Of a stretch of DNA of 64,000 nucleotides, positions 539-35,608 are shown in pieces. Origin of the DNA: Medicago truncatula (taxonomy: Eukaryota > Streptophyta > Magnoliopsida > Fabales > Fabaceae); contig NC_053045.1 of the NCBI RefSeq assembly GCF_003473485.1, forward strand, positions 43,194,494 through 43,258,493. Reading direction: 5' to 3'. The notes beneath the pieces were generated by a model. That model saw nothing but the letters and a program-made list of their open reading frames with translations, ran no database searches and was not told the DNA's origin. The translations under genes were made by a program, and so were the position numbers. Each line of letters opens with the position of its first letter. Position 1 is the first letter of the stretch.

Positions 539-2689
539 TCATTTCCATATCTTCACCACAGAATCACTGCTAGCTGATGCAATATTGAATTCACTTCGCG
601 CCGTAGTAGCTGCTAGTCCAGTAATTAATACATCAGAGGCACCTCCTTTATTACGTCTTTTCTCAGTCTCAAGAATCAACAATTCCAAGCACTGCAATAA
701 GTTGTCCACAGATTATTTACTTACTATTTATGCAACCACCTCGTATACTTTTATAGTTTTAATAGGTTCAACTATGACTGAGTCTAACTGTATAACCTCT
801 GTAACATTTACTTAACAGAGATATAGATGGGACTTAATGATCATAATAGAAGCGCAGGGAAGTGTTTACCTGAAAACCAGCAACAACTAAGACGTTAGGG
901 TATCGAGGATGGAATATGACAGACTGAAACCTCTTCCCGTTTGATTGATACTCGAATATGCATCGTCTGTCCGACCAGACACGTACTTCATCTTCACTGA
1001 CAGAGGCAATCATATTCCCAGTGACGTCCAAACATATGGAATTGATGTCTTTGACGTGTCCCTAATATCGAATGAGAATCAGAGACACGGTGCAGTAATA
1101 ATAGTATCATGATACACAACTTATATATGATATGTGAAGCTCACCTGAAGTTGGTCAATAACAACCATAGTCGGAGTATCAATTATGGTAATAACATTTC
1201 GATTAGCAACTGCCAAAAGCTTCCCTGATCCAGGCTGAAATCTCACTAGGCTTCCTGCCTGAAATTCATTTTTATACAAGTCATTTTACTCTGTGATTCT
1301 GTTTTGAATACTTTAAAAGATGAGTTTTGAATACTGCAAAAATGAGTTTAAGACTAACCTTAAATTCGTTAACTAAGACATTCTTATGGAGATCCCATAC
1401 TTTAATTACATCACAGGTATCGGACGTGCAAAGAACTCCTCCTAATGGGTGAAAGTCCAATGATCTTACTGTCCCATTATGTCCAACAACATTGCAAAAT
1501 GATCTCTCGGGCTATACATATACAAATAATGAATTAATCCATAAGTTACATAGGAAGGAATAATGCAGATGAGTGAGTAGAAGGAGATGTGAAAAGAAAG
1601 AGACTCACACTGTTTGCATCCCATAATTTTACTGTTTTATCAGCAGAAGAGGTTGCAAACACAGTTGATCCTGGTTGAAATCTAACTTCGAAGATGGTAT
1701 CTAAATGTGACTCCAATGCCGTAACAGAAAGACCAGTTTCCAGGTAGCAAATGAAAGGCTATATAAACCACAATATAAGGAAGGATAAATACATTGGATA
1801 GACAAAGTGACAACAAACAAATGGATTTGAAAAATTTATCATATAGATTATTCACCTTCTTCCCAATCCCACCACTTGCTACAATCTTTCCATCCGATGA
1901 TAAATCGCAGGACAAAAGACTTTGACCGCTTGAAATACCTTGTGTTAGAAATAAAAATAAACATTTAATCAACTAAATTTCCTTAATTGTCATCTAAATT
2001 TCACAACTAACAAATATCATGTGAAGTATATGAAATGACAGAATTGTGATGCCAACGATGTATAGAATATAAATTTACATGCAAGCTCTTGAATAGAATG
2101 TCCTTCCAGAATTATTTGAGGGGTAGTTTTCCTCAAAGAATCTAGCACACCGGCTAATGTGCGACTGGACGGTCCGGGCATCTGTTGCCTAGATTTACTG
2201 TCATTATATAAACTCCAGAAATCATGCAACAATCCATGTGGTTGTTTATCAAATTCTGAAAGCACAGTTAAATAAAACTAATCAGTCACAGAAATGAATG
2301 AGAAAAAGAAAGAAAATATAATAAGATAAAGAAAAGAAAATGTAGAATCACACACAAGCTGAATTATCCATATTATATAAGACCAATGAAATAATGCAAG
2401 GAGCATCAAAGAAATAAAGATTTTTAGGTAAAATGAATTAAGCAGAAGCATACACACCAGGGGGAAAATGTCCGGTAACATGAGCTTCATTTTTGAAAAT
2501 CTCAGCAGTGTTTGACAATCCCTTCTTCTTGAGGTAATCATACAGAAAGTTTTGAAAACTACAAAGAACACACAGGATTCATATTACGAAAGAAAATGAA
2601 AGAAAGCAATTCAAGAAAAAGGAAAGAACATGCATGCATGCAGCATTGTACTCTACTCACAGTTCTTCTTTGGGATTTTTTGGATCCAT
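539..2689 (-). CDS. Compact LEUNIG-like transcriptional co-repressor, copy A (9 exons, 383 aa)
   Basis: Exons on the minus strand: 2689-2661, 2558-2458, 2255-2079, 1938-1856, 1758-1609, 1511-1359, 1258-1145, 1061-870 and 691-539. Together they give 1152 nt, open to a TGA at 539-541, with GT donors and AG acceptors throughout. The protein begins MDPKNPKEEL, then a LisH helix pair (FLYDYLKKKGLSNTAEIF, about residues 13-31) and a LUFS-like tail around FDKQPHGLL. WD40 repeats fill the rest, for example SSADKTVKLWDA, TCDVIKVWDL and SSDSVVKIWK at the C-terminus; I count up to seven. In LEUNIG the LUFS domain binds SEUSS-type adaptors and the WD40 propeller binds targets and repression partners in the nucleus. 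The long Gln-rich middle of classical LEUNIG (over 900 aa) is absent, so a co-repressor role is inferred. Exon 3 is a single unit here but split by an intron in copies B and D. Confidence 0.88.
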
Positions 2690-2823
2690 GTTAAAGGAAA
2701 TGGTTCTTGCACTTAGATGAAGAAGATGATTAATGAAAGAAAATAAAAGGAGAGAAAGTGAAGTACTGCAAGACAATAGCGAGTGACCATGCAGAGTCAT
2801 GCATAACAAGAAAATCTTTTCAT

Positions 2824-2841
2824 TTTTATACTGTGGCGGTT
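2824..2841 (-). promoter_or_regulatory. Core promoter (TATA box) of copy A
   Basis: Read on the minus strand this is CCGCCACAGTATAAAAA, about 135 nt upstream of the copy A start codon. The same CCGCCAC block followed by a TATA box lies upstream of copy D (27763-27779). Copy B has the TATA box and the following ATGAAAAGATTTTC in common with copy A. Conservation between copies supports a real core promoter. Confidence 0.5.
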
Positions 2842-2867
2842 AAGTGTGTGGTTAGTTTTTTTTTGTT

Positions 2868-2933
2868 TTTTTTTTTTGTTTAGTGGATAGTCACATAGTT
2901 CGTAATTCTTGTTGATACGCAGCACGAGTACGA
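2868..2933. repeat. Right arm of the inverted repeat bracketing copy A
   Basis: Inverted partner of 112-175 (see there). It starts just upstream of the copy A TATA box, so copy A with its core promoter lies within the bracketed 2.8 kb. Confidence 0.5.
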
Positions 2934-2964
2934 GTCTTTTTCAATTGCTCAACTCTATCTCCGC

Positions 2965-3565
2965 CAGGGGCGGATCTAGACGTTTGGTGCATGTGGGGCT
3001 ATAAAATCTAGTTAAGTTGCTAACATTGGCACTTGTTATCGACAAAAGCAAAATCAACTTCAAAAACTTATAAATCATAGCAAATGTGTTACACTTGTTT
3101 GTTTCCATAAATTTTGCACAAGGTTGTTGGCTGACTTGTTGATCTTATTCGAACTGATGAGTTTTTACAAATGTGTTGGTTCTTAACATATTGTGTTTTA
3201 TTTATAAGGGGTTATAATTATTTTGGTCCCTGAATATGTAAGGAGTAACTATAATAGTCCCTCAATGTATCAAAATTTAAAAATAGACCTTGATTGTGCA
3301 CTTTGCTAGTCAAAATAATTTATAAATACTATCATATTAGTCTTTTAATATACTTTACTTATTGTCACTTCAGACCTATTTTGACTAATAAAGTGCAAAA
3401 TCAGATACTATTTTAAAATTTTAATACATTGAGAGACTATTGTGACTACTCGTTACATATTTAGGGACCAAAATAACTATTACCCTGTTTATAATGAAAA
3501 AAAAAATAGGGAAGTTGGATGTGGGGCTTTAGCTCCACATAGCCTCTAAATGTTTCCGCCCCTCG
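2965..3565. mobile_element. Non-autonomous hAT-like element with a nested MITE
   Basis: The ends read CAGGGGCGGATC on the left and TTTCCGCCCCTCG on the right, short inverted termini. The 7-bp sequence TCTCCGC flanks both ends (2958-2964 and 3566-3572) and reads as a target-site duplication; one further matching position would make 8 bp with a mismatch, the usual hAT size. There is no transposase. A second element, 3208-3487, is inserted inside it. Confidence 0.6.
3208..3487. mobile_element. Foldback MITE nested in the 2965-3565 element
   Basis: Two arms of about 105-110 bp, 3208-3313 and 3380-3487, are inverted copies of each other (shared blocks TTTTGGTCCCT, ATATGTAA, CTCAATGTAT, TGCACTTT). 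The 7-bp TTTATAA directly flanks both ends (3201-3207 and 3488-3494) as a target-site duplication. The transcript would fold into a long hairpin. No coding capacity. Confidence 0.7.
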
Positions 3566-3572
3566 TCTCCGC

Positions 3573-6112: not shown

Positions 6113-6120
6113 TTTAACTA

Positions 6121-9420: not shown

Positions 9421-10076
9421 AAAATAAAATAAAAATATCAGGCACGTTTACAATTTGCCTAGAAATAAAAAGATATGTTCACACATATATATAGGGATAT
9501 ATATATTAATCTGAACTAAAATTAGTGGGGTGTATTGGATTGAGATTTCAAAGGATTTTAAAAGACTTTTTTGTTTTAAAAATTCTTCTTAAAAAAACTA
9601 AAAAATATCTTAAATATCACCTAAAAAAACTTAAATATACATTCAAATCAATAATAAAAAAAGAAAGAATATATTTACTCATTTATTATATTTCTAAAAA
9701 ATAGGAGTAAATAAATAAAATAAAGAGTGAATATTGGAAGAAGATCTTGGAGTAATATTTAGTTTTCGATTCCCCTCTTATAGTTGGCGCCATTATTGCA
9801 CTTTACATATTTAGCATTCTCTTCACTTTCTCACTTTTTTCTTTCTCTACTTCTTCCGGAAAATACTTCTTTCATACGTTTTCTTTCTCTCTATTTCTAT
9901 TTCTTTCACACCAACTTGTGATTCTTTTTCCTTTGTGAACTTTTTTTCGGTATATATCTTGAAACCTTTTTCAATATAACCCTAACACAGACAAATATAC
10001 ATTAAAAACCCTAACACGGACAGAGAGATTAAAAGAATACAAGTGAAGTTGTTTGTTTTTTTTGTTGTTGTTTGTG

Positions 10077-13000
10077 ATGGCTGGTGTTTCTAGCAGAACT
10101 CGTAGCAAGAATGTTCCGTTGTTTGGTTCTCTTTTACTTGGTGGTTCATCAAAACGGAGAAAGAGTGATGAAGAAGATAAGGGGTTGGACTATGTTTCTC
10201 GTTCTAAAAAAAGGAAGATGAACGAAGAACCTTTTGTTGTTCCTGCAGATGCTGAGGTAGTTTCCATCGATGATGATGAATATGAAGATGTTGGTCAAGA
10301 AGGTTCAGAGCATAGTGATGACAAGATGTCTAAAGATGGAAAGTTTGTTGATGAAAATTGTGAGAGGGAACAAGATAACCCGGTTTCGATAAGTTCAGAT
10401 GAGTATGGTGAAAGTGATGAAGAACACTTTGTTGATTCTGATGCTGATAATGAAGAAGAAGAGGAAGAAGAAGAAAAAAAAGAAGATGATGCTGTTAAAG
10501 AGGGAGTAAAAAGTGATGAAAGTGGGGGAATTGGTAGGTTTTCTGATAAAGGTGAAAAGGTTATAATTGATTTGGATGATTCTGAAGAGAGTGAGGAGGA
10601 GGATGATTCTGATGAGAGTGAAGAAAATGACTCTAGTGATGAAGATTTTGCAGTTGATGAACTGAATGAAATTTCAGACAATCATGATGATGACAGTTCT
10701 TCTAGCTCCTCTTATGTTGATGATGATGATGACGAGGAGGAGGAGGAGGAGGAGGAGGTGGTGGAGAAGGAGAAAAAAGAGGGTTACAGAAAAGACTTCA
10801 ATGTGGTGGAGGAATTAGTAAGAAAGGTGAAGAGTCAAAAAAGGGGAATTTCTGAGGGTAATGATGAGGAAGTAAATGTTGAGAATTGTTCATCTTCTGA
10901 TAATGATGATGAGGAGATGGTGAGAGAGGGGAAGGATAAAAAGAGTGGAATTTCTGAGAGGAATAATGAGAAAGTAAATGTTGAGAATAGTCCATCTTAT
11001 GATAATGATGAAGAAATGGTGAGAGAGGTGAAGCGTAAAAAAAGTGGAATTTTTAAGAGGAAATACGAGAAGGTAGAGAATGAGAATGTTCCATCTTCCA
11101 CAAATATTGATGAGTTGGAGCATGCAGATCATGCTAGTGTTTCCTCCTGTATCATTGAGAAGAAGGGTAGTTCTTCTTCTAAACTGAATGGAGTATCAGA
11201 GACACTGAAACCAATGAGTGTGGATGTTGGAGTGAATGCCAAGTCAAAAGCCAAATCCAAAGAAAATGTTGGTGATTCTGATCGAGGAAAAGATCAATTT
11301 GTTAAAGGCTTAGATGTTGGAGGAGTTTCTTCAGTTCATAGAAAGCAAGAAAAGATGAATGAATCAGATAAACAGAAAACAATGGAGAACAAAAGAAGGG
11401 ATTATAAAGGTAGAGCTAACATCTGTAATGGTGAGAAGAAGGAATCTATTGATACCAATGGTTTGAATCAAAGCGTCAAAAGCACACATTTTACGCGGAA
11501 GGAGTTGCGTTCACTCGAACTCCTTGTTAAATGCTATTGGGAAAGAAAGAATACCATTAACAATGATTCAATTGTGTTAGAGGATAACGACGATGGTGTT
11601 GGTCAGCAAGATACATGGCCACCACCAGTCTCTGTGGAGACACCTCGTGAACGGATATGGAGCCTTAAAAAGGTGGAAAAAGTAGAAAAGACCAAGGAGG
11701 AAGAGGAGGAGGAAGTGTTATGGGATGAATTTGATACAGCCCGTAGAGAATCTGACGCTGAATCCATGGTAATCCTCCTCTATAAGAACATATAAATTTG
11801 AACTTTGCTTTTAAATTTTAATTTGTGAACTATAGGACTAGTGCTTAAGCTTTGTGAACTAATAGGACTAGTGCTTAAGCTGATTTTGATTTTTAATTTA
11901 AACTGTTTATATGTTAAACTTTGGTGATCTAAATGATATCTATAAGATTCACAATGAGATTCGTAAGGAAAAATCAGTGACATAGCGTGTTACTCTCTGC
12001 AGATTGGAAATTTAGGAGAAAACGGAGGTCCATCGTTCCGCTGTGAACATGATAGTTTTCTCGATGAAGAGATTGGTCTATTTTGCAAATTGTGTCATGA
12101 GGTTGTTACTGAGATCAAATATATCTCACCACCTGTGGTAAGCACCGTTTCATGTTTATTTATGTAAAATAACCTGGTTAATTTTTTAATTTTGATCTGG
12201 ATAGCGAAATTTGAAAAAATGCTATTGTTCCGCAATAGGCGGCGATTCAATATGAAGTGTTGTCTAATTGTGTGGCTAAAGTGGCGCTATTTTGAACATA
12301 CCGCTTTATTTTGTGATCCTCGATTGACAAACTGATTCACATTATTTTTTTCATTCTCAATACATTAAAATTCGCATTATATGTTAAAACTGAAGAGAAA
12401 GAAACAATTTCTGTGGTATTCAATGTATTATTATGATTTATGGCATTATAATGACATTTAGTACTCATGTAGTAATGGAAAAGGACCTTAGTTGTATGTT
12501 TGTTCTGATTTGATAATGGGATCCGTTGGTGGTGGGAGGCATTGATGTTTGTATCTTTTGTTTTATGCTGATTTGATTTATTTGAAAACAAGTTTAAGTT
12601 TAAATTTTCTTGCTGTTAGATTAATATTTTGACATCATGCTGATATAAGGTTTGATAAGAGGAACTGAATTTTGCATACTTGTTTTTCACGTGACACAGA
12701 TTGATAGATTTCCCGGTGAAGGTTCAGGAAAAAAAGCATCATTTGATGGAGTAAATGTTTCACATGTTGATGGATCTCAGTTAAATGTTTCTGATAATGA
12801 TTCGGAGACTAATTTCTCTCGCAATGAAGGCACAGTTTGGGACCTAATTCCTGGTGTGAAACAAAAATTATATCCTCATCAACAAGAAGGCTTTGAATTC
12901 ATTTGGAAAAACATGGCAGGACACACTGAGCTTCAAAAGTTAAAGAATGCCGATCCTTCCAGCGAAGGTGGCTGTATTATTTCTCATGCTCCTGGAACCG

Positions 13001-14595
13001 GAAAGACAAGGCTGACCATAGTGTTTCTCAAGGCATATTTGAAAGCCTTTCCCAAATGCTTGCCGATTATTGTTGCTCCTGCTAGTATACTACTAACTTG
13101 GGAGGATGAATTCAAGAAATTGGACATCGGAGTTCCATTTCACAATTTAAACAATCCCGAGTTATCTGGTAAAGAGCATCCTGATGCGGTTGAAACATTT
13201 GATATGTCTAATGCACGGCATAATATTCATGAAACGCGGATGGCAAAACTGATTTCGTGGTTCAAAGAACCAAGCATTCTTGGAATCAGCTATAATTTGT
13301 TTGGGAAAAAATGCCAAGATAAGAGAAAGCATGAAAATGTGAATGAGAGAGAAGGAAACTGTGATATGCGAAAGGTTCTACTTAATTCTCCTGGGTTGTT
13401 AGTTCTAGACGAAGGACACACACCAAGAAATCAAAGAAGTCATATTTGGAAGGTGTTTTTGAAGCTTCAAACACAGAAGCGTATTATCCTTTCCGGAACT
13501 CCATTCCAGAACAATTTCTGGGAGCTTTACAGCACCTTAAGCTTAGTGAAGCCTTCTTTTCCTAACACAATACCGCCTGAGCTAAAAAGTTTTTGCCAAA
13601 ATCAGGGACTTAAATCATCTAAAAAATGGAATTGGGAACCAGCGTTGCTCAACAAAACAAGAGACCCTTCTGATGATCAGATCAAGAAGTTTAAATTGCT
13701 AATGGATCCCTTTGTTCATGTGCACAAAGGCGCAATCCTTGAAAATAAGCTTCCTGGGTTAAGGGACAGTTTGGTGACTTTGAAGGCTGGTAGTTTGCAG
13801 AATGAAATTCTGAAGAGCATTAAACGTTCTCAGAACACAATATTTAACTTTGAACGTAAGGTAGCGTTGACATCTGTCCATCCATCGCTTTTCCTTGAAT
13901 GTGCTCTTTCAGAAGAAGAAAAATCTGCTCTCGACAAGGATCAGCTGGAAAAGCTTAGACTGAACCCACATGAAGGTGTCAAAACAAAATTTTTGTTCGA
14001 GTTTGTTCGGCTATGTGATGCTTTTCACGAGAAAGTTCTTGTGTTCAGCCAATTCCATGCTCCTTTACAATTAATAAAAGACCAATTAAACTCAGCTTTT
14101 AAATGGTCTGAGGGAAAGGAAGTGCTGGTCATGTCTGGCGAGGATCCTCCAAAGGTCAAGCAATCCGTAATCCATAGCTTCAACGTTGAAAATTGCCAAG
14201 CAAAAGTTTTACTTGCATCTACAAAAGCTTGTTCTGAGGGAATTAGCTTAGTTGGAGCTTCAAGGGTTGTACTTCTGGATGTTGTATGGAATCCTTCGGT
14301 CGAAAGACAAGCTATCAGCCGAGCGTATAGGATTGGTCAGAAGAGAGTAGTATACACATACCATCTGCTCGCTGAAGGGACTACTGAGGAAGAAAAATAT
14401 GGTAAACAGGCCGAAAAAGACCGGTTATCTGAGCTTGTTTTTTCAGCAAAAAATGCTGCCAATAATGGTGATAAGTCCAAGAGCTCTGCTGTGAACTTCG
14501 AAGATAGAGTTCTTGATGAGATGACTAAACACGAAAAGCTCAAAGGCATATTTGTTAAGTGCGTAGTACTGAGGAAGGAGCGAGATGTGGTCTGA
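10077..14595 (+). CDS. CLSY: CLASSY (CLSY3/4-type) SNF2-family chromatin remodeler, 3 coding exons, about 1240 aa
   Basis: Exons 10077-11768, 12003-12137 and 12700-14595, all joined in phase 0. I chose the ATG at 10077 (MAGVSSRTRSKNVPLFG); the reading frame stays open upstream but has no better ATG. Residues 1-564 are basic then strongly acidic (Glu/Asp/Ser runs) with a likely nuclear signal around KRRKSDEED and SKKRKM. Exon 2 holds a Cys/His cluster (FRCEHDSF, GLFCKLCHEV). Exon 3 carries the SNF2 ATPase: Walker A HAPGTGKT (about 705-712), DEGHTPRN in place of DEAH (about 846-853), SGTPFQNNFWELYS, and the helicase C-lobe with VFSQFHAPLQLI and ISRAYRIGQKR. DEGH-TPRN is characteristic of the plant DRD1/CLSY clade. 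Family members recruit RNA polymerase IV to make 24-nt siRNA precursors for RNA-directed DNA methylation. Length and acidic N-terminus favour CLSY3/4 over CLSY1/2. All motifs look intact. Confidence 0.9.
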
Positions 14596-14663
14596 GAGTT
14601 TTGGCCGTGGATCCAATGTCGTGTTTGGATACATTTATGTGTTTGCAAGAATATCAAATTTTC

Positions 14664-15201
14664 AATAAATTAAGTTTCTGTGTATAGACCAAGGACTACT
14701 TGCAAAGGTAAGAATATTTTTGTCTTTGTATTTTGTTAGTACTCATGATGAATCAATGATATACTGTGACCAAAGGTTAAACAAAAAACGGAAATGCTCT
14801 TAATTTAACCATTTTGATTAGATCAAATTATCTCTATGTTGCTTTATTCAGATCGTGCTTCTGATGTAGCTCTTTGTTTTTGCAGATTCTTCAACATTGG
14901 TCACTATACAAAATTTAATGCAGGCTTGTTAAATAAATTAAGTTTCTGTGTATAGACCAAGGACTACTTGCAAAGGTAAGAATATTTTTGTCTTTGTATT
15001 TTGTTAGTACTCATGATGAATCAATGATATACTGTGACCAAAGGTTAAACAAAAAACGAAAATGCTCTTAATTTAACCATTTTGATTAGATCAAATTATC
15101 TCTATGTTGCTTTATTCAGATCATGCTTCTGATGTAGCTCTTTGTTTTTGCAGATTCTTCAACATTGGTCACTATACAAAATTTAATGCAGGCTTGTTAA
15201 A
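14664..15201 (+). repeat. 268-bp tandem duplication at the CLASSY 3' end
   Basis: Two nearly identical direct copies, about 14664-14933 and 14932-15201, offset by 268 bp; I see only a few base differences. Each copy begins with an AATAAA poly(A)-type signal and contains an intron-like unit: AAAGGTAAGAATA donor and TTTTTGCAG acceptor. The duplication probably lies in the CLASSY 3' UTR or just beyond it, so transcripts could use either of two poly(A) signals or splice a 3'-UTR intron. Confidence 0.85.
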
Positions 15202-16167: not shown

Positions 16168-16839
16168 TGATGGAACAAATGAATGAATCAATTCTCATTA
16201 AGTGTGATCAAAGTGATAGTACAGCTTATATAGGAGAAGTGAAATACAATAGGAACTATGCTACACTAACTGTATATTAACAAACACTCTAATACAGTTA
16301 GGTAAATGTAACTAACTGATAACTTGTATATCAAGTTATCTCTATATCTAGGATTTATCATCACTAATGTCTTAACTATGCAATAGCCTCCCACAAGTTG
16401 GAGGTTGGCAAATGTCTACCAATCCCAACTTGGATAAGAGTGTATGGAAAGGTTGAGGTAGCAAATCCTTTGTGAAGAAGTCTGCAATCTGAGCCTGAGA
16501 AGTGATTGGAAGCAATTTCATGACACCAGCTTGCAGCTTTTCCCTAAGCAAGTGACAGTCAATCTCTAAGTGCTTTGTTCTTTCATGAAAAACTGGGTTA
16601 GCTGCAATGTGAAGGACACTCTGATTGTCACAGTAGATGACAGGTGGTTTGGTGCAAGTTAACTGCAAATCCTGAATGAGATATAGAAGCCACTGCAATT
16701 CACAAGTAGCAGCTGCAAGTGCCATATACTCAACTTTGGATGAGGATCTAGATACAAGCAACTGCTTCTTTGTGCGCCAAGAAATGAGGGATTTACCTAA
16801 GAAGAAGCACTGGCCTGAAATAGATCTTCTGATGTGCAA
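16168..16839 (-). mobile_element. Ty1/copia retrotransposon relic: RNase H end of pol plus LTR
   Basis: The minus-strand frame 16839-16372 encodes a copia RNase H: SWRTKKQLLVSRSSSKVEYMA, TCELQWLLYLI, YCDNQSVLHIAANPVFHERT and HLLREKLQAG, then the copia-type C-terminus ADFFTKDLLPQPF. Downstream of it 16363-16168 looks like a short LTR of about 196 bp, starting TGATGATAAATCC and ending TTGTTCCATCA (TG...CA), with a CTATATAAG TATA box inside. The purine tract before it is weak. Everything upstream of RNase H (gag, integrase, most of reverse transcriptase) is missing, so the element is dead. Copia elements replicate by reverse transcription of genomic RNA. Confidence 0.85.
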
Positions 16840-18098: not shown

Positions 18099-21013
18099 TC
18101 ATCTCCATATCTTCACCACAGAATCATCGCTAGCTGATGTGATGGTTTCATTTTGAGCCACTGCTAGTCCAGTAATTGATAAATCAGAAGCATGTGTACT
18201 GCTATGTGTTTGGCCATTCTCAAGAATCAACAATTCCAGGCACTGTAATAAATTGTACACATATTATTTACTTTCTCTTTATGCAATAAGTTTTTTTACT
18301 TGCTGCATGACAATCAAACCCAAAAACTTTAAGCTGAAATACTTGAAACATAAAAGTATTTATTACTTTCAGAGGAACCAGTTGGAAATCTTTATTTTTA
18401 TCCTCTTTTTTTTTGTTACAAACTCGATTCTTATTCTATTTCAATTTAGGGAGCCCAAATTTATATGGTCTAATTTAGCAAGTCATGTACTACCAAGAGA
18501 TTATGAGCTTCATGAATAGATGCCAGTATAAGTCCATTGGGGATAATGAAAACCTTAATTAGTCAATAAATAGGTCCAAACCATTGAAAATTGAAAACTG
18601 TTTACCTTCTATCTATATAAAGAGAAGTTAAGATCCAATCAAAAGAACTAAAAAGATTTGGTTGAGGATGAATCATGAGGCCATATTCTATTGATTGTCA
18701 GAAGATAGATATGCAATCAATAGCTATGGATTTATGTATTAACCATATCCTCCATAATCTAGTAAACAATAGCTTGATTCTATGGCCTTAAGCGTTTGTT
18801 ATAGATTGTAGGCCTATGAAATTTTCAGGTTTTGCATAATGTATGAAAACAGGACTTTAATCCACAAATCATCACAACAGCATAAGCAGCTGGAGATATA
18901 GACACAGCCCATATATGAAAACAGGACTTCATTCCATAAATCAGGATAATCAATATAGAAGGGACAGCAATCATAATGGAAGCGGAGGGAAGTGTTTACC
19001 TGAAAACAACCAATAACTAAGACGTTAGGGTATCGAGGATGGAATATGACGGACTGAAACCTCTTCCCATTTGATGGATACTCATATATGGACTCTTTCA
19101 TAAAAACTGACAAAACACGTACATCATCTTCACTGACAGAGGCAATCATATTCCCAGTGGCATCCCAACATATAGACTTAATTTCTTTGACGTGTCCCTA
19201 ATTAGGAATGAGATTCAGATTCATGGTGAAGTAATACTGGTGTCATGATACACAGCTTATATATGATATGTGAAGCTCACCTGAAATTTGTGGAAAACAC
19301 TCAAATCCTGAGTATTAAATATGGTTATAACATTTTGATTAGCAACTGCCAAAAACGTCCCAGATCCAGGCTGAAATCTCACTTGCCTTCCACCTTCCTG
19401 AAATTCATGTTTATACAAGTCATAGTACTCATGTGACCTGTGAGTGGTTATTCAGTTTTGAATACTAAAATATGAGTGTTAGACTCACTGTAAAGTTGTT
19501 AATCGTGACACACTGTTCGAGATCCCATACTTTAATTGCATCACATGTATCAGACGAGCAAAGAATTTCTCGTAATGGGTGGAAGTCCAATGAACTTACT
19601 ATCCCATTATGCCCAGCAAGTTCAAGCAACTCTCTCTCAGGCTATACATATATCATGAAACATCAAAACATAATGAATTAATCCATGAGTTACAAAGGAA
19701 AGACTATTGCAGAAGAGTGAGTAGAAGGAGCTAAGAAAAGAAAGAAACTTACTCTTGTTCTTTTTGCGTGCCATAGTTTTACTGTTCTATCAGCAGAAGA
19801 AGTTGCAAATATAGGTGATCCTGATCGAAATCTGACTTCTAAGATGGCATCTAAATGTGTCTCTGATGTTGTAAAAGAATTACCAGTTTCCATGTAGCAA
19901 ATGAAAGGCTATTTAAACCACAATATAAGGATCAGTACATTGCACAACGTGAGGGTAAACAAATTGAATTGGAAAATTTATTGCATTATTTATTCACCTG
20001 CTTCCCAAGTCCACCACTTGCAACAATCTTTCCATCTGATGAAAAATCACAGGACAAAAGCTTCTGACCGCTTTGAAAACCTTGAGTTTAAAATTAGAAT
20101 AGACATTGAATCAATTAAATGTCCTTAATTGTCATCTCGATTTAGAACGGAAGTTACAAAATGCAATATATAGTTCGCGAGACACTAACAAAGATTTTGT
20201 GAAGTATATGAAATGACAAGATTGTGAAGGACTTTGTAAAGATGTATAGAAAAGAAATTTACTCTCAAGGTGTTGAATAGCATATCCATCCGGAATTATT
20301 TGAGGGGTATTTTCCATTATAGGACCAACGTTTTGGGCCTGAAAATTGAGTAATTAATATATGACTGTGTTGCACTATATATGAAACCAAGAACCAGTTA
20401 TTAACATTGAACATTTAGCCATCATATATAACCTGACTCTGACTGGAAGTTCCTGACATCTGTAGCTTAGAGTCATAGAATCTAGTCCAGATGTAGTACA
20501 AGAAACCACGTGGTTCTTGATCAAATTCTGAAAACACAGATAAATAATATAAGAACAATAATTAGTCACAGAAATGAATAAAAAAGAATATACAATAATA
20601 AGATAAAGAAAGAAATATTATAATGCAAGGGGCATCAATGAAGAAACCATTCTTGGGAAACATGATTAAAGAAAAAACTAAAAAAACAGACATGAATGAT
20701 TTTAGAACTGACATTACTACCGAAATTGCACATCAAGAACTGATTAATGGGTAAAGAAAGAGCAAAATCAGACATATATACATACCAGCAAGAGTTTGTC
20801 CATTATTAACTTGAGCTTCATTTTGGAAAATCTGTGCAGTTTCCAAGAATCCTTTCTTCTTGAGGTAATCATGCAGAAAGATTTGAAAACTACACAGAAC
20901 ACACACACACTGATAAGAAACAAAATGAAAGAAAGCAGCGCAAGAAAAAGGAAAAAACATGCATGCATGCAGCGTTTTTCTCACAGTTCTTCTTTGGGAT
21001 TTTTCTGGTTCAT
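18099..21013 (-). CDS. Compact LEUNIG-like transcriptional co-repressor, copy B (10 exons, 384 aa)
   Basis: Exons on the minus strand: 21013-20985, 20889-20786, 20527-20433, 20338-20263, 20080-19998, 19908-19753, 19641-19489, 19397-19281, 19197-19000 and 18242-18099 (1155 nt, no internal stop). The protein starts MNQKNPKEEL, with the LisH segment FLHDYLKKKGFLETAQIF and LUFS-like FDQEPRGFLYYIW. WD40 repeats follow (SSADRTVKLWHA, TCDAIKVWDL, ASDDSVVKIWR at the end). In exon 8 the usual VRVWS is VRVLS, so one repeat has lost its Trp. Same architecture as copy A but with exon 3 split by an intron at 20432-20339. The 1.7 kb repeat-bearing spacer upstream separates it from pseudogene C. Nuclear co-repressor function is inferred from the family. 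Confidence 0.88.
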
Positions 21014-22924: not shown

Positions 22925-23905
22925 CATATATGTTGGCCACAGAATCATTGCTGCTAGTCCAGTAATTGATACATTACGTTTAGCACTTCTAACACTACGT
23001 GTTTGGCCAATCTCAAGAATCAACATTTCCAAGCACTGCAATAAATTGTACACATAGTATTATCTTCTTATTTATGCATTAACTATTACTTGTTACGTAG
23101 CAATCAAAGACAGCAACTTTAAGCTGAAAATACTTAAAACATAGTATAGATTTTATGGCCTTGAGTGTTTTGTTATAGATTGTATAGCTGCAATAACATC
23201 TGTAACAGTTACTTATCTGAGATGGAAATAGAGGGAATTGTTTACCCGGAAATAGAGGGAATTGTCGAGGATGGACTGAAACCTCTTCCCATTTGATGGA
23301 TACTCGTATATGCATCGTCTTCACTGACATATATATGGCCTTGAGTGTTTGGCCCATAAAAATCGACCAAACACGTACATCATCTTCACTGACAGAGGCT
23401 GAAATCTTACTTGCCTTCCACGTTCCTGAAATTCATGTTTATGCAAGTCATTTTATTCATATGACTTGTGAGTATTTATTCAGTTTTGAATACTAAAATA
23501 TAAGTGTCAGACTCACCTTAATGTTGCTAATCATGACACGCTGATTGAGATCCCATAATTTAATTGCATCACGAGTATGAGTACGAGTACTATACAAACA
23601 AAGAATTTCTTTAATTGGGTGGAAGTCCAATGATCTTACTATCTCATTGTGCCCAGCAAGATCAAACATATATATGATGAAACATCAAAACATAATGAAT
23701 TAATCCTCAAGTTACAAAGGAAGGAGTAGTGTATGAGGGGATATAAAAAGAAAGAGATTCACTCTTTCTGTATCCCATAGTTTTACAGAAGAAGTTGCAA
23801 ATATAGGTGATGCTGGTTGAAATCTAAATTCTAAGATGGCATCTGAATGTTACTCTATTGAAGTAACAGAATTACCAATTTCCATGTAGCAAATGAAAGG
23901 CTATA
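22925..23905 (-). pseudogene. LEUNIG-like copy C, fragmentary pseudogene
   Basis: Pieces of exons 9, 8, 7, 6 and 5 are readable in the same order as in copies A and B: exon 9 about 23037-22925 (CLEMLILEIGQT, then frame loss), a scrambled exon 8 at about 23400-23232 containing internal repeats, a stub of exon 7 at 23427-23398, exon 6 around 23670-23519 with a small insertion, and exon 5 around 23902-23764 with 12 bp missing inside SSADKT. The exon 8/7 junction is fused, removing the intron. Exons 1-4 (LisH/LUFS) are absent. It cannot encode a working protein. Confidence 0.85.
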
Positions 23906-25140: not shown

Positions 25141-27645
25141 TCATTTCCATATGTTCACCACAGACTCAGAGGCATTGCTTGTAAATGATAATGCAATGAA
25201 TTCAACTCCCGTACAAGCTGCAAGTCCAGTAAATGATAAATTAGAAGCCCTAAAACGATGTATTTGCCCGTATCCAAGAGTCAACAATTCCATGCCCTGC
25301 AATAAATTGTACACAGATTATTTACTTTCCATCTATGCAATAACTTTTGTACTTTTTACATAATAACAATCAAAGATAATAACTTATGTTTCAAGCAAAC
25401 TGTCTTTTGGTTCTGTTCAGTTCGGTTTTCTTTCTTGAACAAAACCATAACAACCCTAAGTGGCATAAACATCCGGAGGAAAATATACTTCGTTACTCAT
25501 ACTAAAGATGTAACCAAACATTTCCATCTCTATTTTTTATTATTTTAAAGGTTCAACTACGACAGAGTCTAAGCGAATCTCTATAACAGTCACTTAAAAG
25601 GAGATATAGAAGAGACACTATGATCATAATGGAAGCAGAGGGAAGAGTTTACCTGAAAACCGCCAACAACTAAGACATTACGGTATTGAGGATGGAATAT
25701 GACCGACTGAAAATTATTCCCGTTTGATGGATACTTGAAAAAGCATTGTCCGCCCATAGAAAGCGACCAGACACATACACAATCTTCGCTGACAGAGGCG
25801 ATTGTTTGCCCAGTGATATCCCAACATAAGGAACAAACATATGTGACATGACCACCCTAATAGAGAATGAGATTCAGACTTGGTTTTAGTAATACTTTAT
25901 CATGATGCAAAACTCACATTTTAATCAATTAATTATGATATGTCGTATGAGAACCTCACCTGAAGACGGTACTTAACAGCCAAAGACGGAAATTCAAGTA
26001 TGGTAACAACATTTTGATTAGCAACTGCCAAAAGCTTCCCAGATCCAGGCTGAAATCTCACTGGGCATCCACCTTCCTGAAATTCATTTTTATACAAGTC
26101 ATTGTACTCATGTGACCTGTGAGTAGTTGTTATTCAGTTTTGAATACTAAAAGACGAGTGTAGGACTCACCATAAAGGTCTTCATTATGACACGCTGATT
26201 GAGATCCCATACTTTAATTAAATCACAGGTATCAGACGAGCAAAGAATTCTTTCTGTTGGGTGGAAGTCCAATGATCTTACTATCCCATCACATTTAAAA
26301 TCAAACAACGCTCTTTCAGGCTATATACATATGTATCATGAAACATCAAAACACAACGAATTAATCATCAAGTTACAAAAGGAAGGACTAATGCAGCAGA
26401 GTGAGTAGAATGGGGTATGAAAAGAAAGAGACTCACCGTTTTAGCATCCCAGAATTTTATTGTTTTATCAGCAGAAGATGTTGCAAATATAGTGGATCCT
26501 GGTTGAAATCTAACATCTAAGATGGTAGATGAATGTGACTCTGAGGCAGTAACAGAAGTAGAAGTATCCATGTTGCAAATGAAAGGCTGTATAAACCACA
26601 ATATAAAGATAAATATGTTAATTATGCAGACCATAAAAAGATGGAATTGGAAAATTTATCGCATTGATTATTCACCTTCCCGCTGTTCCCACCGCTTGCT
26701 ACAATCTTTCCATCTGATGAAAAATCGCAGGACGAAAGTGTCTGACCGCTTGGAAAACCTTGTGTAAGAAATAAAAATAAACAGTGAATCAACTAAATTT
26801 CCTTATTTGTCATCTCAAATTCACTAGATACTAACAAAAAAATTGTGAAGTATATGAAATGACAGAATTGTGATGCCAAAGATGTATAGAATAGAAATTT
26901 ACTTGTAATGCTTTGAATAGAATACCCATCCTGAATTATTTGACGGGTAGAGTTGATTATTTGCGGGGCCTGAAATTTAGTAATGTATGAATAGATTTGA
27001 TTATTTAGCACTGTGAAACCAAGAACCATGAATTAACATTAATTGAACCATCATATATAACCTGACTCTGACTTGAGGATCCTAGAGTGAGTTGAGTCTG
27101 TTGCCTTATACTCCAAATGTCGGACAAGATTCCACGTGGGTGTTGATCGAATTCTAAAAATTCAGTTAAATAATCAGTCAAAGAAATGAATGATATTAGA
27201 AGAAAGAAAAGAATATGCAGAAGATCTGAATATGTATCCGTTGTTATCACCATCACCCTTTGCAAAACATAATCATACAAGCTTAAGAATCTATATTATA
27301 AGCTGGATTTGCGCTTCAACTACATTTGTCTGCATTTTGTTGCAATATCAAGATTCGCAGAAAGTGCAAAAGTAGACATATATACATACATACCAGGGGG
27401 AATTGATCCAGTAATGTGAGCTTCGTTTGCAAAAAGCTCAGCACAGCGTAACAATCCTCTCTTCTTGAAGTAATCATGAATAAAGATATCAAAACTACAC
27501 AGAACGAACGATAAATTATATGGATAAGAAGCATTTTAAGAAAGAAAATAAAAGAAAGTTGCGCAAGAAAATTGAAAGAACATGCATGCATGCATGCAGC
27601 ATTGTACTCTACTCACAGTTCTTGATCAGTTTTATTCGGGTCCAT
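25141..27645 (-). CDS. Compact LEUNIG-like transcriptional co-repressor, copy D (10 exons, 382 aa)
   Basis: Exons on the minus strand: 27645-27617, 27494-27394, 27153-27062, 26969-26903, 26758-26676, 26586-26437, 26320-26171, 26076-25960, 25856-25653 and 25296-25141 (1149 nt, open to the stop). It begins MDPNKTDQEL, with LisH FIHDYFKKRGLLRCAELF, LUFS-like FDQHPRGILSDIW, then WD40 repeats (SSADKTIKFWDA, TCDLIKVWDL, SEDCVCVWSL, ASESVVNIWK). It is the most divergent of the three intact copies and closest to E and F, sharing the longer GGQCFFKYPSNG exon 8. Intactness over ten exons suggests recent or present selection. Function (nuclear co-repressor adaptor) is inferred. Confidence 0.87.
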
Positions 27646-28698: not shown

Positions 28699-28758
<60 letters not shown>

Positions 28759-28760
28759 GT
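28699..28760. repeat. (TA)n followed by (TAA)n microsatellite
   Basis: An uninterrupted run of about 22 TA units followed by several TAA units. Likely length-variable between individuals. Confidence 0.95.
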
Positions 28761-29231
28761 TTATTGATTCAATAAGTTTTACATGAAAATGCACTATAAC
28801 TACATTTATATCTTAGTAATATTTTATAACAAGTTTCTAAAAATTTATTATATATTACTATCTTAATATATGATTGTCGATCACTATAGTTTCTAGTTAG
28901 TTCAAAAAAAATTGATATCTTTGTATCTTTAATTTGCTCCCTCTGCCTCTTAATAATGTATTGATTGAAAAAAAAAAAAATTCATGTTTTGAATACCTTT
29001 GTATCTTAAAAAATTGTATTATTCTTAGAACCCTTTTGTTTGTTTGATTCATATGGATTTAATACCTTTGTATCTGAAAAAATTGTATTATTCTAGAACC
29101 GTTTTGTTTGTTTGATTTATATGGTCAAATGTTTGACAACATATTATTGTTTTATCGTTGTTTTGTTACTTTGTTGTTATACTGCTACTTTTTTTAATAA
29201 ATTGTTATACTTATTTTATTGTTCCCATAAG

Positions 29232-29318
29232 TCGTAGCTCAACCAGTAAAATTGTCGAAATTGTTAGACCGAATGTCATGACGGAGGTTCAAATTCTGAC
29301 GCCTCTTACTTTGTGTGT
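29232..29318 (+). mobile_element. tRNA-derived SINE-like copy, second family
   Basis: Plus-strand relative of 21530-21622, with A-box-like GTAGCTCAACCAG and B-box-like GGTTCAAATTCTG. Decayed; no clear target-site duplication seen. Confidence 0.45.
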
Positions 29319-30126
29319 GTTTATGATAGTTTTTTCATTTCGTCTATCTATCAAAAATATATATAATATTAAAAAAAAAACATTTGTTTCACATTTGCAT
29401 CAAATAGTTGATATAATAAGCATTTATCGTGTCACTATTTTATCTTATCCTTATCCAGCTCATCGTCATATTTGTTTATATTATTCTATCTTGTGCCCTA
29501 AACAAACACCCCACAAATTTTAAATAGGATGGTTTATTGAACCTTTTAGGCTTTATATACCAATGTGTGATATGAGTTTTTAAACAATGCTTATAAAAAA
29601 TCATTTTAACGTAATTTAATCCATGTAGCCAACCTATGTAGTGTGATAAAGTTTGGTTCATCATCAACAGTTATTTTGTGTGGGTCTATAAATACTCTAT
29701 CAGCTACCATTCTAATTTGATATCTCAAAATTTGAAGTATTTGGTGATCAGAATTTCCAAATAAGGAGCAAATCAATTCCACTCTCGACTTACACGGTGC
29801 CTCATTTGAACTCACTACTCAGAGTACCTTATCTAATAACTTCACAAACAAATTATGGTAGCAAAAGCAATGGTTGCTTCAGCAAGTATGGTGCCAAACA
29901 AATTTTCAAAGAAAAGGTGCAATGGTAAAAAGTATGATCACAATGCAGCTGGCATTTGCCATTTTTCAATCTCCCTTTGTGAATTTGTCTAGCACTTGCC
30001 TGTAAGAAATCAAAAGATATTGAACACTTGCAATTTGGTTGTGGGACACTTTTGGCTGATAATATTCCATTAAATGATTGCAAAGTTTAATAGTTTGTAA
30101 ATTACTATGGCAGCAGAAATCTATTA

Positions 30127-30557
30127 AGCTATTGTAACCTTTATAAGCTTATGCCTTTTCTATTATATGTCGTTGCGTATCAGGCTCACCTATCAAAACA
30201 AGATTGAATGAACTCATGTGTTTCAAATCCTCAAAGGATGCTGTTACCTGTACCCCAATTTTATTTTATTAATTGCAGAATTGCTTTCTATTTCCTTTGT
30301 TTTAATCTTGCAAGTGATACTTTCTGACCAAAATTTCATTGATCTTGTTAGGGAGTGCAGATGGCTGGGTACAAGGCCTAAAATATATTCAAAGGTCTAA
30401 AACAAATTTGTCCTATTGTACATTTATAACTAAATTGAAAAATTATGAAGCCTTTTTTTTTGGCATAAAATTGAGGTCTAAAGCCCTAGCGTAGGCCGTT
30501 TGGCAATTCTTGAAACATAATCTGCAATCAGGAATCCCTCAAACATTATATATCATC
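30127..30557. repeat. Duplicated array spacer, copy 2
   Basis: Partner of 24081-24507 (see there), located at the 3' side of copy E. Confidence 0.85.
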
Positions 30558-30739
30558 GCTGCCATGCAACAATAGAGGAAAGTAAAACATGTACAAAGAA
30601 AAAAACAATTTCAAGCTCACCTCTCGCGTGTGATGTTTCAAAACACCAGTTGTACATATACGCAGATTATCTAACAAATCCTCAAAACTGAAGCAGGGGA
30701 GGAATTTACACCAAAGAACAACTGACATTTACTAGAACT

Positions 30740-32717
30740 TCATTTCGATATGTTCACCATAGACTCAGAATCATTGCTAGTTGTAGTTGATGCAATGAAT
30801 TCATCTCCGGTACAAGCTGCAAGTCCAGTAAATGATGAACTAGAGGCCCTAATATGATGTATTTTCCCGTAACCAAGAGTCCACAATTCCATGCACTGCA
30901 ATAAATTGTACACAGATTAGTTGCTTTCCATTTATGCAATGACTTTTGTACTTGTTACATAACACTCAAAGATAATAACTTATGTTTCAAGCAAATTATT
31001 TTTTAGTTTCGTTCAGTTCAGTTTTCTTTCTTGAACGAAACCATGAACAACCCTATGCAGCATAAACTGCTGGAGAAAAAATATACTTCGTTACTCATAC
31101 TAAAGATGTAATCAAACCTTTCCATCTTTATTTTTATTATTCTAACGGTTATTTAAAAGGAGATATAGAAGAGACACCATGATCATAATGGAAGCTGAGG
31201 AAAGAGTTTACCTGAAATCCACTCACAACTAAGACGTTACGGTGTCGAGGATGGAATATGACAGACTGAAACCTCTTCCCGTCCATAGAAAGCGACCAGA
31301 CACTTACACAATCTTCACTGACAGAGGCGATTGTTTGCCTAGTGACATCCCAACATAAGGAACAAATATTTTTGACATGACCCTGATAGAGAATGAGATT
31401 AAGGCTCATGTTTTAGTAGTACTATATCATGATACACAACTCACATTTTAATCAATTATATATGATATGTCATATGTGACGTCACCTGAAGACTGTTCGT
31501 AAAAACCAAAGACGGATATTCAAGTATGGTGATAACATTTTGATTAGCGACTGCCAAAAGCTTCCCTGATCCAGGCTGAAATCTCACTAGGCTTCCTGCC
31601 TGAAATTCATTTTTACATAAGTCATTGTACTCATGTGACCTGTGAGTAGTTGTTATTCAGTTTTGAATACTAAAAGACGAGTGTAAAACTCACCATAAAG
31701 TTCTTCATCATGACACGCTGATTGAGGTCCCATACTTTAATTACATCACAGGTATCGGACGAGCAAAGAATTCCTCCTAATGGGAGGAAGTCCAATGATC
31801 TTACTGTCCCAGTATGTCCAACAACATTGCACAACACTCTCTCGAGCAATACATATATATCATGAAACATCAAAACATAATGAACCAATCATCAAGTTAC
31901 AAAGGAAGGACTAATGCAGAAGAGTGAGTAGAAGAAAGAGACTCACTTTTTTTGCATCCCATAATTTTACTGTTTTATCAGCAGAAGATGTTGCAAATAT
32001 AGTTGATCCTGGTTGAAATCTCACGTCAAAGATGGTAGACGAATGTGACTCTGACGTAGTAACAGAATCAAGACTTTCCACGTTGCAAATGAAAGGCTAT
32101 ATTAACCACAATATAACCATAAATACAACGTGCAGAGATGTAGAGGAAGTGACAGTAAACAAATTGAATTTGAAAACTTATTGCATTGGTAATTCACCTT
32201 CGCCCCATGCTTCTTCGCAGTCTCCCCACCACTTGCTACAATCTTTCCATCTGATGAAAAATCGCAGGACAAAAGCTTCCGACATGGATGGCGGCTTGGA
32301 AAACCTTGTGTTAGAAATTAAAATGACCATTTAATCTCTAAAATTTCACAAGATAGTAACAGTGATTTTATGGTAAAACTAGCAAACATAATGCCACAAA
32401 GATAAACTACATGCAACCAAGAGGAATAGAACAAGTATATGAATAGAAACTTACGTGAGCAATGTCGAATAGAATATCCATCCCGAATTATTTGATAGGT
32501 ATTGTCCATTATAGCACCAATGTTTGGGGCCTGAAAATTGAGTAATATATGAATACGGAGGATCCTTGCATCTGTTGCCTATAGAGATATACATGCATGC
32601 CATAGAATACGGATAAGAGGCCGTTTAAGAAAGAAAGTAAAAGAAAACAGCGCAAGAAAATGAAAGAATCTCACAGCATTGTACTCACATATCTTGAGGG
32701 GAATGTTTTGGGTTCAT
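30740..32717 (-). pseudogene. LEUNIG-like copy E, degenerate: LisH exon deleted
   Basis: Recognisable pieces: exon 1 (32717-32689, MNPKHSPQD), exon 3b (32530-32455), exon 4 (32304-32198, enlarged in frame), exon 5 (32096-31947), exon 6 (31846-31694), exon 7 (31599-31486), exon 8 (31382-31212, lacking about 10 codons) and exon 9 (30895-30740, ending VNISK with the WD Trp lost). The whole LisH exon 2 and most of exon 3a are missing, leaving only an AGGCAACAGATGCAAGGATC stub near 32570. Exon 1 (29 nt) joined to exon 3b would be out of frame. The exon 6 acceptor AG is TG at 31848-31847. Long open exons suggest it died recently; a short WD40-only product starting downstream is possible but unproven. 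Confidence 0.8.
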
Positions 32718-32719
32718 GA

Positions 32720-33900
32720 TTGATGATGATGATGATAGGTTGAGAGAAGTTCTTGCAACTAAGAGATTAATATTCAATTAGAAGAAAGCAAATGACAGTG
32801 AGTGAGTAAACTAAGCTGGAACTGTGAACTTTGCAAATAAGTAACCAACTTCCTAACTACCTTTTAACAGATTCAACTAACTATTGCATTTTGAATTATA
32901 CCTCGCATGTATTTAATAGTGAGCAAGCATGCGAATGAATAACTCTACATTTAAATTTTGCTTTTCTCATTGAGTAGTGTTGTGTTTGTTATGATTCGTG
33001 AACCGGACCAACCAGTTCAAACGGTTGAACCAGAACGGATCTTTATCTGATCTAATCTTTGAACCGACATAAAAATGAGCGGGAACAAAAAAAAATATTT
33101 TCAAAGCTAAGGAAACTTTATAAAAAGGAAAATGAAAATATTAATCACATGAAAGAGCATAAGCGATTTGCTAACTTTGTATCTATCTCTCTTTTATATT
33201 GATTTATCTTGTATTTTATCTATATTTTTCTCTCATAAAATACACTAAGGTGAGGGACGGACCCACTTGAAAGGATGTGTGGGCCATGACCTACACTTGA
33301 TTCTGAAAAATAAATAAATTTTTAGTACTCGATAAAACAAAAAAGAAATGAAATTGATCTATATTATAGATTGTGCCTCCACTATGTTTTGATAATTTTT
33401 TGAATGTGTGAGGTTTGATATAATAGTCTTTAATGTTTTAAAATTAGAAAAACAAAATTGAATTCATTTGTCTTTTATTAGTCTGTTCAATCTTTAACTA
33501 TGCCTTTAAGTAGTTAATTTGGTCCTCAAGTGATAAGTTATTAAAGTGAAAAAAATCGAGAATTTGTATTGTAACCACTCAAGATTTGTTATGCATGTTA
33601 TATTATATCAATCATTCACTTTTTATCAGCAATTGATATTACACAATTTACCATGTAAATGGAGCAACTCATTTTTGAGGAGGCTTGTCCTGAAAAAAAG
33701 ACATTTGTGCTGTAAAAACATGTGCACATCTTGCAGCAGTACAACTATACAAAGCATCTAAAAGCCACTTGAAATTGAGGAGAGTAAAAAATGTACAAAT
33801 AGTGAAAATTAAAGAAAAAAAGAAAGAACAAATTAAGCCTAGTGTTCTATGTGGACCATTTACTCTAATCTGGATATATATCAGCAGATCATGAAAACAC
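32720..33900. other. Spacer between copies E and F
   Basis: No supported gene. Includes the GTGAACCGG repeat at 33000-33075 (relative of 21142-21260) and GGGACGGACCCAC near 33253, possibly a hAT-like terminus. From about 33775 on, the sequence matches the region left of the PKR1-like gene. Confidence 0.4.
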
Positions 33901-33910
33901 AAGGTAAGAG

Positions 33911-34008
33911 TTATTCACTCTTTCTGTTTGTCTCTACAGAATCCTTATGTTCCAAGCCCATTCTCACATTTTATAGTAGTACCTATAGAGACTAAACTGG
34001 TTACAATG
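33911..34008 (-). pseudogene. Relic of the PKR1-like terminal exon at the 3' side of copy F
   Basis: On the minus strand the last part reads MGLEHKDSVETNRKSE followed by TAA, which aligns with MGLEAKDPLEANKKSE-TAA of the PKR1-like gene (36544-36591). The upstream part aligns at nucleotide level but carries indels, including an extra A just before ATGGGC. Similarity continues downstream (AGTGTTCTATG, CTCTAAT, CAGATCATGAAAA). It is a duplicated terminal exon fused to the copy F 3' flank, not a functional exon. Confidence 0.75.
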
Positions 34009-34063
34009 AAGCATGGCTGCAGGGGAGAATTTACACCAAAGAATAGAGACATCAACTAGAACT

Positions 34064-35608
34064 TCATTTCCATATGTTCACCACAGGCGCATAGTTGTTG
34101 CTAGTTGATGCAAATAATTCCTTTCGTGTACAAGCTGCTAGTCCAGTAATTGATATACAAGAGGAAGGAATGCTACGAATTTGCCCGTTGCACTCGAGAA
34201 TAAAAAATTCCATGCACTGCAATAAACTTTTTGTACTTGTAACATAATAATCAAAGACAACAACTTTATGTTGAAATACATAAACATAGAAGTTTTTATA
34301 TTTTCACATTAACCAGTAGGAGGAAGCATATGCTATCAGATAAGTAATCAATAGCTATTATGTATTACTATTAAGTAACCCTATCCTCTATAATCTATCA
34401 GCATAACATAGACTGTATGGCCTGAAGCATTTTGTTATAGATTATGCACATAAAATTTCCGGATTTCGCATACAGAATAAAAGATAATAATTATTCTAAC
34501 AGAGCCCATATTTGGAAACAAGAGTTCAATCCAAAAAGGTTCAACTATGACTGAGGAAAATATACTCAAGATGTAATCAAACTTTTCCATCTTTATTTTA
34601 TTATTTTAAAAGGTTCAACTATGACTGAGGCTAAATGTAACCTCAGTAACAGTTACATAAAAGTATATATAAAAGAAACACCATGAACATAATGGAAGCA
34701 CAGGGAAGAGTTTACCTGAAAACCACCAACAACTAAGACGTTACGGTATCGAGGATGGAATATGACGGACATAAACATCTTCCCTTTCGATGGATACTCA
34801 TATAAGCACTGTCCGTCCATAGAAAGCGTCCAGACACGTACACCATCTGCACTGACAGAGGCGATCATTTGCCCAGTGACATCCCAACATAAGGAACAAA
34901 TATATTTGACGTGGCCCTAATAGGGAATGAGATTCAGACTCATGCTGTAGTAATACTATTTCATGATACACAACTTACATTTTAATCAAATTTATAAATG
35001 AGATGTCAAGCTCACCTGAAGACATTAAACAACAGTAAAAGTCTTAAAATCAAGCAAGTTGATAACATTTTGATTAGCAACTGCCAAAAGCATCCCAGAT
35101 ACAGGCTGAAATCTCACTTGGCCTACACCTGCCTGAAATTCATTTTTATATAAGTCTTTGTATTCATGTGACCGGCAAGTAACTATTCTGTTTTGAATAC
35201 AAAAAGAGGAGTGTAAGACTCACCTTACAGTTTTTAATCTTAATACACCGATTGAGATCCCATACTTGAATTCCATCATGGGAATAGGATGAGCATAGAA
35301 ATTGTTCTGTTGGGTGGAAGTCCAATGATCTTACTATCCCACTATGTCTAAAAATGAAGAACATTCTTGCAGGCTATATATATGTGCATCATGAAACAGC
35401 AAGACATAAGGCATCAATCCTCAAGTTACAAAGGAAGGACTAATGCAGAAGAGTGAGTAGAAGGGGGATGTGAAAAAGAAAGAGACTCACTTTTTTTGCA
35501 TCCCATAATTTTACTGTTTTATCAGCAGAGGATGTTGCAAATATAGTTGAACCTGGTTTAAATCTAACATCGAAGATAGTAGATAAATGTGACGCTACTG
35601 AGCGTACT
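34064..35608 (-). pseudogene. LEUNIG-like copy F, 5'-truncated pseudogene with an in-frame stop
   Basis: Exons 9 (34216-34064, ends VVNIWK), 8 (34916-34716), 7 (35132-35016), 6 (35373-35224) and part of 5 (from about 35608 to 35490, ASHLSTIFDVRFKPG and SSADKTVKLWDA) are present with usable splice sites. Exon 7 has a TAA at 35027-35025, codon 36 of 39. Everything upstream of mid exon 5, including LisH/LUFS and promoter, is missing; the homology stops near 35608. A SINE-like insertion lies 75 bp further upstream. Confidence 0.85.

Follow-up and report, generated by a model that had tools for sequence, protein, structure and literature searches.

Contig NC_053045.1 (C4) of the Medicago truncatula assembly GCF_003473485.1 carries a tandem array of compact genes related to LEUNIG (LUG), part of which lies in the 64,000-nucleotide stretch analysed here (C4:43194494-43258493, the window). 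The intact copies encode proteins of 382-386 amino acids (aa) with a LisH domain, a remnant of the LUFS domain, a linker and a WD40 domain; judged from its codons, natural selection appears to be altering the WD40 propeller of the array, whereas the full-length relatives are almost frozen. By a slight balance of probability, the array is considered to encode LisH-dimerising, diversifying WD40 recognition or adaptor proteins on a LEUNIG scaffold, rather than SEUSS-recruited co-repressors.

The Array and Its Copies

All six copies in the window (A-F) lie on the minus strand within positions 539-35608, as located by tblastn and by spliced alignment with copy A; exon matches to copy A have E-values down to ~1e-55, far beyond chance. 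A search of the genome (429.9 Mb, 42 contigs) with the A protein extends the array past the left window edge, where three further open copies (X1, X2 and X3) are found; the matches listed include no additional array copies on either side. The array totals at least nine copies over ~50.3 kb (C4:43179776-43230100) and, with the three open copies left of the window, six are intact and three are broken. The copies are as follows, in window coordinates for A-F and contig coordinates for X1-X3; exon numbers for C, E and F follow the ten-exon scheme.

Copy A, 539..2689, minus strand: intact, nine exons, 383 aa, open frame with GT..AG introns in the spliced model; exons 2689-2661, 2558-2458, 2255-2079, 1938-1856, 1758-1609, 1511-1359, 1258-1145, 1061-870, 691-539
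Copy B, 18099..21013, minus strand: intact, ten exons, 384 aa, open frame by spliced alignment to A; exons 21013-20985, 20889-20786, 20527-20433, 20338-20263, 20080-19998, 19908-19753, 19641-19489, 19397-19281, 19197-19000, 18242-18099
Copy C, 22949..23900, minus strand: broken remnant with parts of exons 6, 7, 9 and 10, and a stop in exon 6 (tblastn, spliced alignment)
Copy D, 25141..27645, minus strand: intact, ten exons, 382 aa, open frame by spliced alignment to A; exons 27645-27617, 27494-27394, 27153-27062, 26969-26903, 26758-26676, 26586-26437, 26320-26171, 26076-25960, 25856-25653, 25296-25141
Copy E, 30743..32530, minus strand: broken; exons 1-3 not found, AG of the exon-7 acceptor lost, short deletion in exon 9
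Copy F, 34067..35607, minus strand: broken; exons 1-5 not found, begins inside exon 6, stop in exon 8
Copy X1, C4:43181902-43179776: open, 386 aa
Copy X2, C4:43185313-43182781: open, 383 aa
Copy X3, C4:43190685-43188245: open, 383 aa

Copies A, B and D have GT..AG introns and zero internal stops or frameshifts; their spliced models (383, 384 and 382 aa) bear out the initial annotation, which had described six same-strand copies with these three open across 9-10 exons and encoding ~383 aa. Its view of C, E and F as dead also holds, given the stops in C and F, the acceptor loss and exon-9 deletion in E, and the 5′ exons that were not found; the exon-7 acceptor of E reads TTG instead of the AG-ending TAG, and a protein search found no LisH/LUFS exon for C, E or F. 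The count of three intact to three dead genes is correct for the window but not for the whole array, and the description of a birth-and-death cluster stands, with six open and three broken copies in tandem.

Copy A has nine exons because it lacks one intron: where the other five intact copies are interrupted between exons 3 and 4, its third exon (window 2255-2079) is continuous and the frame is kept. In X2 the usual ATG position is occupied by CTG, with an in-frame ATG 15 bases upstream. The 383-aa model of X3 uses the linker splice sites of the other copies; an earlier 392-aa model, with a wrong donor and a wrong acceptor in the linker, was discarded. Sequence exchange between copies is also evident, as copy A is a mosaic in which an X3-like 5′ end is joined to an X2-like 3′ end: 149 of the 150 bases before its ATG are identical to X3, identity is 96% and 92% between its exons 1 and 2 and those of X3, and 94% and 92% between its two final exons and those of X2. 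Segments of the array differ in the tree they favour, with log-likelihood differences of up to 21 units.

Apparent Selection on the WD40 Propeller

Codon tests were run on the six intact copies, with C, E and F set aside. Over 361 gap-free codons, model M0 gives a ratio of nonsynonymous to synonymous substitution (dN/dS, omega) of 0.96, which is not different from 1 (p 0.65); pairwise NG86 values among the copies range from 0.62 to 1.21, with dS of 0.20-0.51. Introns diverge by 0.21-0.63 (these pairwise and intron values use the earlier X3 model), which is close to the divergence of the synonymous sites and shows that dS is not depressed. Under M2a the codons separate into 25% at omega 0.06, 55% at 1 and 21% at 3.3; twice the log-likelihood difference (2dlnL) is 48.7 for M2a versus M1a and 48.9 for M8 versus M8a. 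The WD40 domain alone (274 codons) gives omega 1.00, with corresponding differences of 49.6 and 49.5, and across both codon sets the fast class has an omega of 3.3-3.7 on 20-21% of codons. The LisH-LUFS part (59 codons, omega 0.86) and the linker (28 codons, 1.3) do not differ from 1. As a control, six full-length LUG-type genes of the same genome show an omega of 0.10 over 286 WD40 codons with no class above 1; the LUG-type loci C1_12 and C4_54 are outside this control.

An average omega of ~0.96, and the broken state of C, E and F, all three without 5′ exons, could instead reflect relaxed constraint on a dispensable family that is drifting to pseudogenes, with three members already dead. This account is given little probability; the six open frames of 382-386 aa persist where neutrality predicts 4.9-10.2 stops per copy on terminal branches (zero seen, with a per-copy probability of 0-0.007 for such an outcome), omega is ~0.06 in a quarter of the codons, and neutral drift does not produce a class above 1. 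Relaxed decay was rejected as the principal account on the kept frames and lengths, the frozen codons, the bootstrap given below and the class above 1. The initial annotation had expected a dN/dS near 1 to count against it; this value is found on average but does not signify decay, as the average is better accounted for by frozen and fast codons in combination.

Positive selection could also be mimicked by gene conversion, misalignment or multi-base mutations atop a fast-evolving family of six paralogs; the segments that favour different trees, the mosaic structure of copy A and the mis-splicing of X3 in its earlier model are all points for such an artefact, which is nevertheless judged improbable. 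In parametric bootstraps without positive selection, none of 45 replicates with four recombined segments reached the observed 46.3 (maximum 11.9), nor did any of 45 without recombination (maximum 4.1); the value of 46.3 is the 2dlnL observed on an earlier 364-codon alignment (earlier X3 model), the same version as used for the bootstrap. Analysed separately, each on the best of eight trees tried, the four segments still give differences of 6.0 (p 0.049), 9.0, 11.1 and 14.0, with a sum of 40.0; with X3 in its earlier form, the first segment by itself fell short of significance (4.6, p 0.10). The WD40 part aligns nearly gap-free and is unaffected by the X3 correction.

Sixteen codons have a posterior above 0.9 for the fast class: 11 in c-d loops or strand d, three in the a-b-c core and two in the linker. 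The mean posterior is 0.335 in c-d loops and strand d (n=96) versus 0.148 in the a-b-c core (n=182), with p 4e-8. Several points weigh against reading these results as diversification of the propeller rim: strands and loops were placed by aligning the sequences with the WD repeat pattern and from general WD40 topology, not from a structure; omega is 0.81 for the core block (p 0.14) and 1.30 for the rim block (p 0.13), neither of which differs from 1; the codon models were run with purpose-written code, not PAML, and rest on six sequences of one genome. Exchange between copies can inflate site tests as well, although the recombined null still did not reproduce the signal.

Protein Architecture

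The LisH domain passes the Pfam cut-off in five of the six intact copies; copy D scores 13.8 against 21.6. It is followed by the LUFS remnant and by a linker of ~40 residues, where 42 inspected residues include 4-9 glutamines (Gln); exon frames lying between LUFS and WD40 in the C1 LUG gene reach 42% Gln. That the protein is compact and lacks a Gln-rich linker, as the initial annotation proposed, is borne out by the gene models, which have this short linker in place of the Gln-rich middle.

In the LUFS helix GFLxxWWxVFWDxF, only the G, the L and the second W (G57, L59 and W63) are kept in all six array copies. PMC6800368 and PMC10287724 describe V65, F66, W67, L69 and Y70 of the third SSDP helix (fly numbering) as LDB-docking and dimer contacts; taking these five positions as one set is a choice of the present analysis, and the docking residues are carried from animal LDB-SSDP (SSDP/SSBP2) to plant SEUSS-LUG by homology only. 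Hydrophobic residues fill all five positions in five full-length LUG-type genes and four in the C2 gene (C2_3), and the array copies retain 2, 2, 1, 2, 2 and 2 of five; C3_53 was left out of the comparison, its match spanning an intron. With the LisH cut-off passed by five of six copies and the helix-3 hydrophobics mostly gone from all six, LisH dimerisation of the array proteins is likely and SEUSS docking is doubtful.

It had been proposed that these proteins keep both binding ends and could compete with LEUNIG and LUH for SEUSS-type adaptors as dominant negatives. The first part is upheld for LisH but not for the LUFS docking surface, and the second is weakened accordingly; since the docking positions are eroded in every intact copy, competition for SEUSS is not the simplest reading, and it is considered unlikely. 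The retention of LisH, of the GxLxxxW remnant of LUFS and of a complete WD40 domain would suit a competitor, as would the finding, in PMC4015341, that residues 1-88 of LUH (LUFS) alone bind SLK1/2 and do not repress. However, the helix-3 hydrophobics fall from five in full-length LUG to one or two, the LisH-LUFS omega of 0.86 is unlike that of a conserved interface, and diversification is not required of a protein that competes with a frozen partner.

A different function for the propeller, as the diversifying substrate face of CUL4-DDB1 substrate receptors (DWD proteins), is considered highly improbable. By the definition of the DWD motif in PMC5460815, the four key residues are present and in register in blade 2 of D, X2 and X3; however, A and B have no motif, the X1 match is out of register, the strict 16-residue pattern is satisfied at its second position by none of the six copies, and the full-length LUG-type gene C3_53 has the same four residues.

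Relation to Full-Length LUG-Type Genes

On the basis of its LisH domain, short LUFS-like helix and LUG-type WD40 intron positions, the array is placed in the LEUNIG (LUG) lineage, as was initially proposed. Outside the array, the closest matches in the genome fall at LUG-type loci on C1, C2, C3, C4 and C7; at least seven such loci exist besides the array. A LUFS probe, with 11 matches, detects six of these loci, and the LUFS of the C2 gene is weaker. The WD40 part of copy B is alignable over its whole length to seven LUG-type loci (101-132 identities in 293-298 aligned columns); the Pfam single-repeat WD40 model matches three stretches each in A, B and D, and the seven blades are recognised by alignment only. 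Intron positions in the WD40 part are common to the array and the C7 LUG-type genes, where the WD40 exons after the first measure 150, 156, 117, 198 and 141 bases in two C7 genes and 156, 153, 117, 198 and 144 bases in copy B.

In a tree of 13 WD40 parts with two outgroups of WDR5 type, all six proteins of the array fall into a single clade (100/100) on the LUG side, with WDR5 outside and a stem of 0.85 changes per site. C1_12 (partial and frameshifted) was excluded from this tree, and the last exons of C4_54 are poorly modelled in it. The nearest neighbour of the array is the C2 gene (83/97; 75/96 in a re-run without the short outgroup out_WDR5b, which is 31% filled), and C4_54 and C1_20 are disfavoured as alternative sisters (p-AU, from the approximately unbiased test, 0.007 and 0.03); the exact sister is uncertain because of long branches. 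Origin as recent fragments of a normal LUG gene nearby was considered and rejected, given the single clade with its long stem and the finding of no full LUG gene beside the array.

The C2 gene (C2:3.90 Mb; C2:3896000-3903000) shares an LLHEWWS-type start of the LUFS helix with the array, but its LUFS and WD40 parts are still separated by a middle of 4 kb that includes exons with Gln. This middle holds three consecutive similar Gln-containing open stretches (SAQTNFMM...), which suggests internal exon duplication. On C7 (27474000-27505999), two same-strand LUG-type genes lie ~14.6 kb apart with a dS of 0.067 and a dN of 0.006 in the WD40 part; from this divergence, the pair is taken to result from the recent duplication, in tandem, of one normal full-length gene.

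The supposition that such co-repressor genes are usually single copy does not agree with the seven or more other LUG-type loci of this genome, nor with soybean, for which PMC13275459 reports 12 LUG genes; the soybean family described there has 39 members, all of at least 513 aa and none tandem, with truncated sequences removed by hand. No paper on this array or on compact LUG genes came up in open-licence PMC text.

Other Features of the Window

Between copies A and B, the split open reading frames (ORFs) of a SNF2-type helicase gene (SNF2 and Helicase_C), presumably CLASSY-like, are found, and further ORFs and repeats are listed below.

10053-14595, plus strand: split ORFs of the helicase gene
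10800-11102: three units of ~100 bases in the acidic N-terminal part of the helicase
14661-15196: two head-to-tail copies of 268 bases, 99% identical, directly past the helicase ORF
16372-16839, minus strand: ORF of 155 aa with zero Pfam matches, taken from its motif to resemble a copia RNase H remnant
42116-42451, plus strand: ORF of 111 aa, presumed from its motif to resemble a RALF-type signalling peptide precursor
50549-51283, minus strand: ORF of 244 aa, assumed from its motif to resemble a VQ-motif protein

Proposed Role and Comparison with Known Systems

Birth and death, exchange between copies, and a near-invariant core with a fast rim fit a diversifying recognition family on a LEUNIG scaffold. 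The tandem family may have arisen from a LEUNIG-type co-repressor through loss of the Gln-rich middle, after which selection would have kept a ~383 aa protein in which a pair of LisH helices for dimerisation is combined with a WD40 propeller of seven blades. The proteins would dimerise through LisH, and the propeller, through its variable rim and lower face, would bind target proteins that vary from copy to copy or with time; the candidates are partners from a pathogen, a symbiont, the gametophyte or the endosperm. It is tentatively suggested, at somewhat less than an even chance, that a LEUNIG scaffold cut to LisH and propeller was recruited to an arms-race-like cluster under pathogen, symbiont or reproductive conflict.

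Among plant regulators, the co-repressors of LEUNIG type are some of the most conserved, as their omega here illustrates; a tandem offshoot with an omega of ~1 and a positively selected class suggests that the scaffold is convertible to a fast-evolving recognition protein. The 16 fast codons are concrete test sites, the full-length genes of the same genome provide a natural control, and the question raised by the array is which partner drives the change.

LEUNIG and LUH, co-repressors of the Groucho/Tup1 type, are 700-900 aa long and have in common with the array proteins the LisH domain, the LUFS-derived helix and the WD40 domain. The array proteins differ in their length of 382-386 aa, tandem arrangement, lack of a Gln-rich linker and eroded LUFS docking helix, in having 9-10 exons versus the 16-18 reported for soybean LUG genes, and in an omega of ~1 versus 0.10 in full-length LUG-type genes. 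Plant F-box and MATH-BTB adaptor families undergo birth and death under diversifying selection; they resemble the array in tandem duplication, pseudogenes, sequence exchange and fast sites in the target-binding domain, but the array scaffold is a LEUNIG-type co-repressor with LisH and not an E3 adaptor. Fungal NLRs of the HET-E type have variable WD40 repeats and likewise present a WD40 propeller under diversifying selection; however, their fast sites recur across near-identical repeats within one protein, whereas the array consists of diverging paralogs.

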